Assembly (NCBI RefSeq): GCF_003987475.1
Contig: NZ_PIQH01000001.1
Coordinates: 248,001 to 312,000 of the forward strand
Direction of reading: 5' to 3'
DNA: 64,000 bases
From: Idiomarina tyrosinivorans
GTDB lineage: Bacteria > Pseudomonadota > Gammaproteobacteria > Enterobacterales > Alteromonadaceae
Shown one piece after another: positions 2,546 through 18,613 of this stretch; the stretch's first letter is position 1; every line of letters starts with the position of its first letter. Below the pieces are notes generated by a model, which was not told the origin of the DNA, made no database searches, and worked only from the letters and a program-made list of their open reading frames with translations. The position numbers and the translations under genes were made by a program.

Positions 2546-4939
2546 TCATGAATCCCTTAACGTTGCGTCAAACTCGGCTTGCAAGGTATTAATTAACGTC
2601 GCCATGATGTTATTAATATCTTGCTCTTCCAGCGTTCGTTCGTTGTCTTGTAACGTTACCGACAACGCGAGGCTTTGGCGCCCTTCTGGCACTCCCTCAC
2701 CACGATAAACGTCAAACAAGTTTAGGCTAACAAGTTGTTTTACGCCAACATTTTCGAGAGAGGCAAGAACTTCACCGGCTGCAATATTGGCATCTACAAT
2801 GACCGCAAGGTCACGGCGTATGGCTGGGTACTTAGACACCGCTTGCGCCTGAGCAATATGGCGTTGGCTGACTAACGTTAAATCTAACTCAAATACGTAA
2901 GCACGGCCATTTAAGCCAAGCGCTTTCTCGAACTTAGGATGGATAGCACCTACGACACCGACTTTTTGACTACCGAGGTAAACGGCAGCCGTTTGCCCTG
3001 GATGCAGCGCATCGTGTTGGTCAGCAACAAAACGGAATTCAGCGGCGCGCCCGGTGCGCGCTAACAACGCTTCTACGTCGCCTTTAATGTCGTAGAAATC
3101 GACTTGGCGATCACCATCTGACCAGTGCTCTTGGTGCGCTTTACCATAACGAACGCCAGCAATAACCGGGGTTTGTTTCACCCCTGAAGCTTCACTGTCG
3201 TCAGGAACGAAACGTAAACCAGTTTCTACAAACGCCAGCATCGACTGTTGGCGTTTTTGGTTGTGTGCCACAGCACCCAATAGTCCTGGCCACAGACTAA
3301 CTCGCATCGATGACATATCCACCGAGATCGGGTTTGGCAGTGTCAGTGCTGCGATATCGTTAAACAGTAACGCTTGATGCTTTGGATCGACGAAACTATA
3401 AGTAATGGCCTCTTGATAGCCGCGCATCACCATGGCGTCGACTAATTGATGACGCGATAGCTGTGCTTCGCGGTGCTCACTCATGCGCAATTGCGCCGCA
3501 GGAGCTGCCGCTTGAATAGTGTTATAACCGTAGACCCGCGCAACTTCTTCAATCACATCTTCTTCTATCGCAATGTCGAACCGGTAAGACGGCGCTTGAA
3601 TCACCCAACGCGTTGCGTCCTGTTCAACAATCGTCAAACCAAGGCGAGTAAGAATATCCGTGACTTTTTTGGCATCAATACTGGTTCCAAGCACTTTCGC
3701 TAACCGCGCTGCGCGTAATTCGACTTTGCTACGTTGTGGTAATTCCGCTTCATTGACCGCTTCCACGATAGGTCCAACCTTACCACCACAGATATCAACC
3801 AATAGCGCAGTAGCACGCTCCATCGCTTGGCGCTGCAAAGCGGGGTCAACACCGCGCTCATAACGGTGCGAAGCATCGGTATGCAGACCAAAACGGCGTG
3901 CTTTACCCAAAATCGCTTCAGGGGCAAAAAAGGCACTTTCTAAGAAAATATTCTGTGTTGCAGCGGTGACACCTGATGCCTTACCACCGTACACACCGGC
4001 CATAGCCAGTGCCTTGTCTTCATCGGCAATAACCAACACATCGTCATCTAAGCTGACTTCTTGCTCGTCTAACAATGTGAGCTTTTCACCTTGTTTCGCA
4101 TGGCGGACATGAATATCGCCACTCAGGGTATCAAGGTCAAAGGCGTGCAGTGGATGGCCCAGTTCCAGTAATACGTAGTTAGTCACATCTACCACTGGGT
4201 CAATACTGCGAATGCCGCTACGGCGCAGACGTTCTGTCATCCAGATTGGGCTTTTCGCGTCGAGGTTAATGCCTTCGATCACTCGGCCTAGATAACGCGG
4301 GCAGTCACTGGCGGCGTCCAAATGAATCGCTTTTTGGGTGTCTGAACTGACGCTTACTGGAGCAATTTCTGGCTCGTTAACAGGAAGCTGGTTCAACACC
4401 CCGACTTCGCGAGCGATGCCGCGAATGCTTAAGCAATCACCACGGTTTGGGGTTAAATCGATGTCGACAGTAACGTCGTTAAGCCCTAAGTATTCGCGAT
4501 AATCGGTTCCTACCGGCGCGTTTTCTGGTAATTCGATAATCCCTTCGTGTTCATCAATCAGGCCTAACTCTTTAAACGAGCACAACATGCCATGAGAAGG
4601 CTGACCGCGAAGTTTGGCTTTTTTAATTTTGAAGTCGCCAGGCAGCACTGCACCGACAACTGCAACGGCGACTTTAAGCCCTTTGCGACAGTTTGGTGCG
4701 CCACAAACGATATCAAGTAACTCGCCGGTACCGGCTTCGACCTTCGTTACCTGCAATTTATCAGCGTCAGGATGCGGCCCGCATTCAACCACTTCACCCA
4801 CCACAACACCGCTAAATTCGTCTGCAACCGGCAATAAATCGTCGACTTCAAGCCCAGCCATACTCAGCTGCTCGGCCAATGCGTCGCTGTCGATTGCAGG
4901 ATTAACCCATTCCCGTAACCATTTTTCACTGAATTTCAT
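2546..4939 (-). CDS. pheT: Phenylalanyl-tRNA synthetase beta subunit
   Basis: The 797-residue protein matches bacterial PheT in length and layout: an N-terminal EMAPII-like tRNA-binding domain (about 40-150, with [22 protein letters not shown]), the B3/B4 editing region, the B5 domain, and a C-terminal ferredoxin-fold anticodon-binding domain (about 700-797, with [15 protein letters not shown]). It forms the alpha2-beta2 enzyme with PheS that charges tRNA-Phe and edits Tyr-tRNA-Phe. It lies 13 bases downstream of pheS. Confidence 0.98.
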
Positions 4940-16275: not shown

Positions 16276-16301
16276 CGTCTGTTTTGTGCCAATAGCGGAC
16301 G
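16276..16301. repeat. Imperfect inverted repeat at the left edge of the cassette region
   Basis: CGTCTG at 16276-16281 faces CGGACG at 16296-16301. The left half GTCTGTTTTGTGCCAA resembles GTCTGCTTTGAGCGAA on the minus strand at 18589-18574, on the other side of the cassette array. Similar short palindromic units are scattered between genes in many gammaproteobacteria. Confidence 0.35.
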
Positions 16302-16385
16302 TTAACGCCGCAAACAGTGGCAGTTTTGAGTGGCTTATAGCGTAACGACGGGACTCTTAAAACTGTCCGACCTCTTTGTTTTAAA
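16302..16385 (-). other. Possible decayed attC after the last cassette
   Basis: TTAACGCC at the left (plus strand, from about 16302) resembles the TAACGCC end of the three good attC sites. CAGTTTTGAGT and ACTCTTAAAACTG can form an internal stem, and TTTGTTTTAAA lies where TTTGTTAGG would be expected. Neither outer core matches GTTRRRY, and the expected partner of GTTACAT is missing. It may be a degenerate site. Confidence 0.3.
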
Positions 16386-16399
16386 ATGCAGCACCGGCA

Positions 16400-16615
16400 T
16401 TACAGGTTTCCGTTCTTTAACCATGACCCCACTACAACCTCAATTATTCGTTCGACCTGCACCGAATCTTTGGAGCTACCGCCGTGCGCCTCTAGGGCAT
16501 CGAGAGTTTTTATGGCTATATATCTCGCCTGAGATTTGGAGACCGCATACCTAGACTGGATCTTAGTAGCAGTTCTTTTAATCAACACGTTTCCGTACTT
16601 TTCTTCTGCGTTCAC
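16400..16615 (-). CDS. Small cassette-encoded protein, unknown
   Basis: From GTG at 16615, with GGGG five bases upstream, the frame encodes 71 residues starting (M)NAEEKYGNVLIKRTATKIQ. It is mostly helical, lysine- and serine-rich, with no recognised family. The frame extends further upstream to 16690, but that part is inside the attC site at 16631-16711 and is unlikely to be translated. As the last cassette gene it would depend on an upstream promoter or its own. Confidence 0.5.
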   Translation of the reverse strand: MNAEEKYGNVLIKRTATKIQSRYAVSKSQARYIAIKTLDALEAHGGSSKDSVQVERIIEVVVGSWLKNGNL

Positions 16616-16630
16616 TATTACCCCGATATC

Positions 16631-16711
16631 ATGTAACGCCCACCTAAACGGAGAGAAAGCTGTTGCGAGTCGAGCGGTCGCAGGAGGCAATATTTAAGGC
16701 GTTTGTTAGGT
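16631..16711 (-). other. attC site 3
   Basis: On the minus strand it begins with ACCTAAC (16711-16705) and AAACGCC and ends with GGGCGTTACAT (16640-16631). AACGCC pairs with GGCGTT near the ends. CTCTCCGTTTAGGTGG near the right end resembles CTCTCCGTTGGTGG in attC 1. The left core is the exact complement of GTTAGGT, which starts this cassette. The terminal core GTTACAT deviates from GTTRRRY at one position. Its first bases include the stop codon of the membrane protein gene. Confidence 0.75.
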
Positions 16712-17119
16712 TTTTGCAATGTACGCATATATAGCCAGTTCAGCTAGTAAATACCATAATACACATGCGAGCGAAATTCCGACGGATATAATTACTTCCT
16801 TTTTACCGTAATGTTCTTTTTCAAGTCGTCGACTAAAAATAATGAAGCCAACAATGAAAAAACAAATTAGATAAGGAGGAATGAAAACTCGGAAACCTTG
16901 TAGGTTTGACGCAATAGCCATTTGCGGTGCAGCAATAAGCGCTCGAACAACAAACGTAATTATTGCTGTCAGATAAATAGTACGAAATGGCTTATTTACC
17001 CTAAATAATCGATAACGCTTCCCTAACCACTTTAAAAAAATGACAGGTATCAAGGTAATAACAAGAAACCCAACGCAGATAACCAGCCCGATCAGAAAGA
17101 ATGTAGGAACAGAAGTCAT
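16706..17119 (-). CDS. Cassette-encoded membrane protein, unknown
   Basis: The 137-residue protein has four hydrophobic stretches (about 5-30, 48-70, 77-97 and 110-134) separated by short basic loops, so it is an integral inner-membrane protein. No family is recognised. The TAA stop lies inside the attC core ACCTAAC. The start ATG is 14 bases after the recombination point, and the core GTTAGGT itself supplies an AGG as a weak ribosome site. It lies downstream of the TIR cassette on the same strand. Confidence 0.7.
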   Translation of the reverse strand: MTSVPTFFLIGLVICVGFLVITLIPVIFLKWLGKRYRLFRVNKPFRTIYLTAIITFVVRALIAAPQMAIASNLQGFRVFIPPYLICFFIVGFIIFSRRLEKEHYGKKEVIISVGISLACVLWYLLAELAIYAYIAKT

Positions 17120-17126
17120 AATTGAG

Positions 17127-17197
17127 ACCTAACGCCAAGGTAATGGCCACCAACGGAGAGGAGCGTAGTTCGCGTCCCGTTGACCACCTTGTTAGCT
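17127..17197 (-). other. attC site 1
   Basis: Minus strand: AGCTAAC (17197-17191), AAGG, TGGTCAACGG, a central loop, CCGTTGGTGGCCA, CCTT, then GCGTTAGGT ending at 17127. Arms pair as CTAAC/GTTAG, AAGG/CCTT and CAACGG/CCGTTG with a bulge, as in attC hairpins. The end core GTTAGGT fits GTTRRRY. The left core complements GTTAGCT, the core that starts the TIR cassette. It is 71 bases long. Confidence 0.85.
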
Positions 17198-17635
17198 TTC
17201 GATTTGTTTAATTTTTTCAAATATAGACTCAGCTACTTCAAGGCTAGCAATATCAATGTTATCCCACGTCGAAATAGGCTTCCCATCTGTGGGCAGCGCC
17301 TGCAATTCTCCATAGGGTGAAGCTGTCCAAGCACAAGGCCTAAGAATGACTGGTATTACAACTGCTTCGCCACTCGCACTCCTCTTCAATGCCTCTTGGC
17401 CCTCAATTTCGTAGCAATAACGAGAATCAATAAAGTGCGGGCTGAGGAAAAGTAAAATGACCTTGGCGTCTCTTAAACGGTCATCAATCGTACCTTTCCA
17501 CTGATCTCCCGGAGGAATCATGCGATCGTACCACTTCAGCAAATATCCTTCCTGCTCATAAACGATCATCTGCCTTCTAACTTCATCCATAAGTTGTTCA
17601 TCTTCGTGTGCATACGAGAAGAATATTTCGATCAT
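17192..17635 (-). CDS. TIR-domain protein (cassette gene, candidate defence effector)
   Basis: The 147-residue protein is essentially one TIR domain. IEIFFSYAHEDE (2-13) is the first strand and box 1. WKGTIDDRLRDAKVILLFLSPHFIDSRYCYEIE follows (46-78), where SxYCYxIE resembles the S-x-[WY]-C-x-x-E region carrying the catalytic glutamate of NAD-cleaving TIRs (here E78). VIPVILRPC (93-101) is the next strand. Bacterial TIR proteins degrade or convert NAD during phage infection. The ATG at 17635 is chosen for AAAGGAT upstream and the family start. It follows the nuclease-like cassette. Confidence 0.88.
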   Translation of the reverse strand: MIEIFFSYAHEDEQLMDEVRRQMIVYEQEGYLLKWYDRMIPPGDQWKGTIDDRLRDAKVILLFLSPHFIDSRYCYEIEGQEALKRSASGEAVVIPVILRPCAWTASPYGELQALPTDGKPISTWDNIDIASLEVAESIFEKIKQIES

Positions 17636-17652
17636 GCCTGATCCTTTTTGAA

Positions 17653-17700
17653 AGCTAACGCCGCATTCAGCGGCTCGTCCGCTGCAATGCATTGTTAGGC
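17653..17700 (-). other. attC site 2
   Basis: Minus strand: GCCTAAC (17700-17694), AATGCATTG, CAGCGG-ACGAG-CCGCTG, AATGC, GGCGTTAGCT ending at 17653. It folds into a compact hairpin: CAGCGG/CCGCTG inner stem, GCATT/AATGC, and TAAC/GTTA outer. The left core complements GTTAGGC at 18352-18346, which starts this cassette. At 48 bases it is a short attC. The stop codon of the upstream gene is inside it, giving that protein the C-terminal tail NALQRTSR. Confidence 0.88.
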
Positions 17701-18341
17701 ATTTCTATGCCTGTTGTGATGACATGAAAGTCGCCACCGTCAATTTTGTATAGTTCCTTCACAGGGTCATAGAACAAGTTTAAAGTCCCAATCTCACACT
17801 CGAGAAAATCGTCGCCCAACAATTGCCCAAGTCGATGCAATTTACCATCCTCCTTGATTCTCGTTCGATCCCCTTCGGCCTGAATTACATCTTTCGCTCG
17901 GCAGGCTCCATAGCTCACGCTATTAAAGTCTATTACTATTCCTCCAGGTGTGTATTGCTCCATGTCCCTAACCTGATCGGAAAGTTTCCTATTTTTACCT
18001 TTCCAATTTTTCTTTGACTGAAAAGGCAAACCTTTAGAGCGAATCACGTTCCCATTTGCATCGTAAATACGAATCTGGAATATCCCATCCGAGCCATATA
18101 TGCGCTCAGGCGCGTTCTTACCCCTACCTCTTAATTTTGTGTATCCAATGTCAACCGTATAAAGCCCTTCCGGAGTGGAAAACTTCTGATTTCTCGGCAT
18201 CGCCACGGCCTGACCCAGCGCTCCAGTAAGGGCATCTTCATCTCCAGAGTTCATCCCGAAAGTGCTTTCCGCATCTGAAACAGCGGCCAAGTATCTATCT
18301 CGGAGTGATTCCATTATAAATTCTGGAAGGATGTCTCTCAT
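17667..18341 (-). CDS. Cassette-encoded protein with PD-(D/E)xK nuclease-like signature
   Basis: The 224-residue protein is not one I recognise by name. It carries an order of motifs typical of restriction-endonuclease-like domains: an acidic helix [10 protein letters not shown] (33-42), [11 protein letters not shown] (82-92, D85) and LPFQSKKNW (105-113, Q108-x-K110), followed by [14 protein letters not shown] (121-134). This suggests a nuclease domain, but it is inference from motif shape. The ATG is five bases after the GTTAGGC core, which supplies the only AGG near the start. The last eight residues are encoded by attC 2. The TIR gene follows directly. Confidence 0.7.
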
Positions 18342-18345
18342 ATTC

Positions 18346-18423
18346 GCCTAACACTTGTATATTGTGCATGCTCAATTAAATTCTAACGAGCGCATAATAC
18401 CTAACTTTGATTTTTAGTTATGT
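18346..18423 (-). other. Core site and possible degenerate attC at the head of the array
   Basis: GTTAGGC (18352-18346, minus) is the recombination core that begins the nuclease-like cassette. About 65 bases upstream ACATAAC (18423-18417) matches RYYYAAC at six of seven positions. Between them GCTC and GAGC could form a central stem. This would be the attC of an older, lost cassette, or an attI-like site; the evidence beyond the core itself is weak. Confidence 0.45.
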
Positions 18424-18570
18424 AATTGATAGTAAAAGACTTAAATACACAACACAATAACAAAACTTGCAATAACGCAGAGATAAGTGTGCTGTGCCTA
18501 ATTCGCCCCCAAACTTACTAATGACAGGAAGGCGAGTAACCAATTAAGTTCAACAAAATCCCAAGGGCCG

Positions 18571-18589
18571 GTCTTCGCTCAAAGCAGAC
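18571..18589. repeat. Short inverted repeat at the right side of the cassette region
   Basis: GTCTTCGCTCAAAGCAGAC contains the arms GTCT and AGAC. On the minus strand its start, GTCTGCTTTGAGCGAA, resembles the unit at 16276-16301 across the array. The intergenic stretch 18342-18613 otherwise holds only the core site and weak attC-like remnants. Confidence 0.35.
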
Positions 18590-18613
18590 TCTCAATGATC
18601 GCCACCAAAAGTC

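Follow-up and report, generated by a model that had tools for sequence, protein, structure and literature searches.

Defence genes carried as integron cassettes have been described by Darracq, Littner et al. and by Kieffer et al. 2025 (as cited in PMC12409362). Passages of PMC12409362 describe small defence-type attC cassettes of chromosomal and mobile integrons near the head of the array, report size reduction or streamlining of such genes, and state that the first cassette position is usually the best expressed. Arrays of attC sites without a nearby integrase are defined in a passage of PMC7923331. At the level of proteins, the closest comparisons for the locus studied here are the ThsB-type TIR proteins of Thoeris, two-domain stand-alone TIR proteins encoded on plasmids and chromosomes, and the Mrr-type PD-(D/E)xK nucleases (PF04471).

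The locus lies in a 64-kb stretch of Idiomarina tyrosinivorans DNA, hereafter the window. Its small defence-type genes stand near the head of an array and end on attC sites, as in the integron defence cassettes covered by those passages of PMC12409362; it differs from them in lacking an integrase of its own and in that its cassettes are known from sequence. The array also fits the category outlined in PMC7923331, although it keeps, beyond what that passage sets out, an attI-like head with copies at many places in each of the examined genomes of the genus. We consider it likely that the two genes at this head are independent integron cassettes, occupying the first two positions in a short array headed by the attI-like site of a genus-specific integron that has lost its own integrase.

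A short cassette array on the minus strand

The array runs from an attI-like leader through cassettes and attC sites in the order given in Table 1, with no full integrase near it. No integrase ORF was seen among those listed for the window, and the leader lacks the functional intI that adjoins attI in a complete integron. The ORF list places the 224-aa frame and a 166-aa frame (17192-17692) on the minus strand. The common strand and cassette context proposed for the two genes in an earlier, sequence-only reading both hold; one attC separates the genes, and another follows the TIR gene.

Table 1. Features of the array, from its head to its 3' boundary (positions within the window).
Feature	Positions	Strand	Basis
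attI-like leader at array head, ends G/TTAGGC (GTTAGGC 18346-18352)	18346..18590 (about)	-	genus-wide homologues
cassette 1, 224-aa protein without family	17667..18341	-	ORF; two relatives; NG86 dN, dS
attC 1, R'' GCCTAAC, R' GTTAGCT, 48 nt	17653..17700	-	expected hairpin fold
cassette 2, TIR-only protein, 147 aa	17192..17635	-	TIR_2, PDLC00420 and AbTIR matches; E78
attC 2, R'' AGCTAAC, R' GTTAGGT	17127..17197	-	hairpin, ends paired
cassette 3, 137-aa protein, no family	16706..17119	-	ORF
attC 3, R'' ACCTAAC, R' GTTACAT	16631..16711	-	weaker, less regular site
possible cassette 4, 71-aa ORF, GTG start	16400..16615	-	read from sequence
array 3' boundary motif GTTAACGTCCGCTATTGGCAC	16286..16306	-	sole match in 64-kb window

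The site between the two genes, attC 1, has the textbook form and overlaps the 3' end of cassette 1, its DNA supplying the codons for the C-terminal residues of the 224-aa protein as well as for what appears as the N-terminus in the 166-aa frame. Because the first 19 residues of that frame come from read-through of attC and spacer DNA, and because the E78 of the sequence-only reading fits the numbering of a 147-aa product, the TIR gene likely starts at ATG 17635 (MIEIFF...) rather than at the start of the longer frame. The R'' box of attC 2, a site missed by the stricter attC detector, contains the stop codon of the TIR gene. With R''/R' boxes and a hairpin in both attC 1 and attC 2, the first two genes have the make-up of integron gene cassettes, and cassette 1 was also found on its own, with its own attC, in Alcanivorax and Oceanobacter.

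Further down the array, attC 3 is weaker and less regular than attC 1 and attC 2. The protein of cassette 3 looks membrane-spanning by eye; family searches returned nothing above cut-off for it, and no plasmid match was obtained. The DNA of possible cassette 4 (16396-16639) is 79% identical to a segment from another species of the genus (G759:C4:134804-135047).

The proteins of cassettes 1 and 2

No family in Pfam, NCBIfam, PHROGs or the defence collection PADLOC matched the 224-aa protein at or near the cut-off (best Pfam match FlgD_ig, E 0.059), and no relative of solved structure was found. Scanning the contigs of 84,980 species with this protein yielded three loci, one of them spurious. 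Its relatives lie in Alcanivorax sp. S6407 (78% in the best segment) and in Oceanobacter mangrovi (68%), where the ORF is split by a frameshift (L010:6001-6674); the latter copy may be inactive, or the frameshift may be a sequencing error. A Thiotrichales locus (L011, 7e-5) was rejected, its match being a 50-residue stretch in a different 227-aa ORF. At E<=0.01, neither the 72,556 plasmid records nor the 50,697 phage records contained a relative (one plasmid match, at E 0.3, is unconvincing), and only the protein itself was recovered from overlapping samples of 369 class, 394 order and 398 phylum genomes. Viral contigs held no usable relative, one stretch scoring as related without a locus, and DNA comparison with 18 other genomes of the genus gave no match to either gene beyond attC.

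Cassette 1 encodes an orphan protein under strong purifying selection. Its differences from the Alcanivorax copy number 37, 21 and 116 at codon positions 1, 2 and 3, with an NG86 dN of 0.138 and a dS of 3.24, the latter near saturation; the ORF therefore encodes a genuine protein that purifying selection maintains. In both relatives the gene has a near-identical attC on its 3' side and a GTTAGGC start. The Alcanivorax copy resembles a lone cassette, and the Oceanobacter copy is flanked on both sides by other ORFs.

For cassette 2, the assignment to TIR proteins holds with one correction, namely that the TIR domain is present alone. The protein matches Pfam TIR_2 at 3e-17, the PADLOC ThsB model PDLC00420 at 3e-46 and, at 2.1e-5, AbTIR in the PDB, whose title names a solved NAD hydrolase; the TIR_2 match goes beyond chance. 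The YCYEIE segment is present as claimed, and in an alignment of the window protein with five plasmid relatives E78 is invariant (6/6) while E76 varies, which bears out the earlier choice of residue. Profile and catalytic glutamate together identify a TIR domain at the level of sequence.

The likeness to ThsB extends over positions 1-145 of the 319 in PDLC00420 and includes the conserved E78, but the second domain is absent. By eye, no ThsA-type partner was seen among the ORFs of the array or the window, and the neighbouring 224-aa and 137-aa ORFs matched neither ThsA nor another PADLOC family, unlike Thoeris, where ThsA is adjacent. The TIR gene has no close relative that we could find; more distant ones occur in 44 of the 72,556 plasmid records, the best matches showing 40-46% identity across nearly all of the 147 aa. 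Seven relatives were measured: five of the 44 plasmid records (317-323 aa) and two chromosomal proteins of the same order (326 and 322 aa), the remaining matches of the order search sitting within longer open frames. None of these two-domain stand-alone proteins was seen as an integron cassette, and no annotated neighbour named ThsA or SIR2 lies beside the five plasmid relatives. Since the conserved C-terminal domain of the seven measured relatives is entirely missing from the window protein, the latter is a TIR-only form.

One system or two cassettes, and what each may do

The sequence-only reading had proposed the two genes as a candidate two-gene defence unit; in such a unit the 224-aa protein would be a nuclease-like sensor or effector working with the TIR protein. 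The genes are indeed adjacent, lie on a common strand and hold the first two places in a single array, co-selection of the two cassettes is possible, and the PD-(D/E)xK motif order of the 224-aa protein falls on matching predicted strands and helices in both of the structure models described below. Each gene, however, comes with a separate attC, and neither the Alcanivorax nor the Oceanobacter genome, both carriers of cassette 1, contains a match to the TIR protein; co-occurrence of the two cassettes elsewhere was thus seen in neither of two genomes, which is a small sample. The motif order is moreover common by chance, and the 224-aa protein has no family, fold or profile support. On account of the separate attC sites and of the two relatives without a TIR gene we reject the two-gene unit, which we now regard as highly improbable. 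In the preferred reading, as independent cassettes, the genes owe their adjacency to the stacking of cassettes at attI and not to membership of one system, and successive cassette insertions would be the simplest account of their pairing.

For cassette 1 the most specific guess, a tentative one, is a PD-(D/E)xK-type nuclease with E35, D85 and Q108xK110. As a restriction-like nuclease acting alone, the protein would make up a single-gene anti-phage cassette. The residues named in the sequence-only reading (E35, D36, D85, Q108 and K110) are all in place, and all five recur in the Alcanivorax copy and across the two Oceanobacter pieces, each of which was read separately; this conservation says little, since the relatives are about 79% identical. 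The order of the motif is frequent by chance: its loose form, E..D..[DEQ]xK, turned up in 1286 of 2000 shuffled versions of the protein, and 19 of the 50 window ORFs of 150+ aa contain it; the strict QxK form arose in 296 of 2000 shuffles and is found in 9 of the 50 ORFs. Two AlphaFold2 models, with mean pLDDT of 40.3 (pTM 0.44) and 36.6 (pTM 0.32), are nearly alike in their order of helices and strands, with a helix at 7-27 and another from 35 (35-47 in the first model) in the N-terminal part, strands at 52-56, 59-69, 86-93 and 99-107/109, a helix at 120-130 and a short strand at about 135-138. In both of these low-confidence models D85 stands just before one strand and Q108xK110 ends the next. 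The modelled order would be that of a PD-(D/E)xK core, which is suggestive only. Foldseek returned no match to the models at E<=0.001, and the best ones (E 0.11-0.12) are not nucleases. The protein shares with Mrr-type nucleases the D...QxK order and, by eye, a similar-looking QxKK context, but the spacing differs, and hhalign against 18 Mrr_cat sequences gave a probability of 0.1%, equal to that of a TIR family control, in a comparison made nearly blind by a Neff of 1.16. Pfam PF04471 (Mrr_cat) matched neither this protein nor any other in the genome. Of the nuclease claim, the named residues stood, the family and solved-structure searches gave it no support, and Foldseek and the profile comparison were uninformative; a nuclease acting alone is a possible reading of cassette 1, and a doubtful one. 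For cassette 2, the alternative to a working enzyme is a dead fragment: cassette formation would have severed the first domain from a 320-aa TIR protein and left it functionless. The length of the seven relatives (317-326 aa), the complete absence of their second domain and the position of the stop codon inside attC 2 all agree with such an origin. Against it, the frame is open and the invariant TIR positions, E78 among them, are intact; a TIR domain can be enzymatically active by itself, and AbTIR is titled an NAD hydrolase. We consider a dead fragment unlikely, though of more than negligible probability. Judging from its sequence, the TIR protein is probably a streamlined NAD-processing defence effector, which would most likely cleave or cyclise NAD+ via E78, either upon infection or unchecked, and which may be a small effector or signal maker that has lost its second domain.

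Leaders and arrays across the genus

Homologues of the leader were detected in all 19 genomes examined from the genus, most of which have it in several places, with 1-6 per genome among the 52 matches listed, of which the weakest are short and one is a second piece of another. Across the wider order, a weak 51-nt match in 1 of 294 other genomes was the only one; this near-absence is less certain than the presence in the genus because at most two candidates per genome were scored. In an alignment of 33 rows, a few of which are the same copy twice, the end motif is found in 25 rows and a GTT end in 22; the window's own copy fell outside the search range and, on inspection by eye, ends ACAATATACAAGTGTTAGGC. 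Columns before GTTA have conservation values of 0.79-1.0 and those right after it 0.29-0.54, and this sharp edge at G/TTA is the one expected of attI. In one genome of the genus (G760), a leader copy directly adjoins a truncated integron-integrase gene (contig C21, L055:1417-2239), the fragment scoring 133.5 bits to TIGR02249 over positions 15-142 of 315. This layout, with intI beside attI, indicates that the leader is the attI region of a genus integron whose integrase has decayed there. By eye, the ORF downstream of the fragment starts like an ATPase, with a nucleotide-binding loop.

A TIGR02249 match over the cut-off was obtained in 1 of the 19 genomes, the window's own, where the sole such match (508.4 bits) lies on another contig, C12. 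Judged by their sequences, the ORFs around this full integrase (L012:7084-11927) look like those of class 1 resistance integrons. A scan for sigma-70-like promoters brought out no distinct candidate in the leader (4 sites vs 5.2 expected in shuffles), and a literature search on attI without integrase found nothing on point.

The 3' boundary motif GTTAACGTCCGCTATTGGCAC, with at most two mismatches, is found downstream of 13 of the 27 leader copies, on the leader's own strand and no more than 8 kb away, compared to 1 copy with the motif on the opposite strand downstream and 3 with it on the same strand upstream. The other 14 copies have no such motif within 8 kb in the sequence covered, which for some of them does not leave enough room. 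On contig C1 of genome G761 (L039:1941-19653), three tandem leader-headed units lie on one strand, each with the 3' motif after 2.6-5.8 kb. Among 45 ORFs from 12 other leader-to-motif units, 13 PADLOC families were matched at E<=0.001, with one ORF each, a count of families behind which there may be fewer distinct ORFs; the strongest matches were to PDC-S51 (2.5e-135) and PD-T7-4 (1.3e-76). Some of the many genes in comparable arrays of the genus are thus of defence type, in line with the earlier expectation that defence genes gather in such arrays. A home-made and unspecific attC detector gave 0.46 sites per kb downstream of leaders vs 0.67 in the background.

In genome G773 (L048), from another species, a near-duplicate of the window's attC 1 is found about 2.2 kb downstream of a leader at 3837, hinting at an exchange of attC types within the genus. 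Next to the array, a gene for a 192-aa lipoprotein has relatives in six other genomes examined; no other tested gene of the window was matched beside these relatives, and no clean empty site was found among them.

A broader picture, improbable as a whole, would be that each genome carries many dispersed attI-headed platforms, lacking integrases of their own, served by an integrase in trans and acting as small defence stores, the one in the window holding a TIR-only NAD enzyme and, at the best-expressed first position, a new family of small stand-alone nucleases. The integrase, formerly the genus's own and now perhaps mobile, would then fill and reshuffle the platforms.

The family of the 224-aa protein adds a conserved and mobile protein to those without annotation. 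The TIR-only cassette, if active, would be a minimal TIR effector with which to ask what the second domain does in two-domain proteins. For the genus itself, the leader raises the problem of how genomes came to hold several platforms and how these are filled without an integrase, and its recurrence allows the detection of cassette arrays beyond the reach of integrase-based searches.
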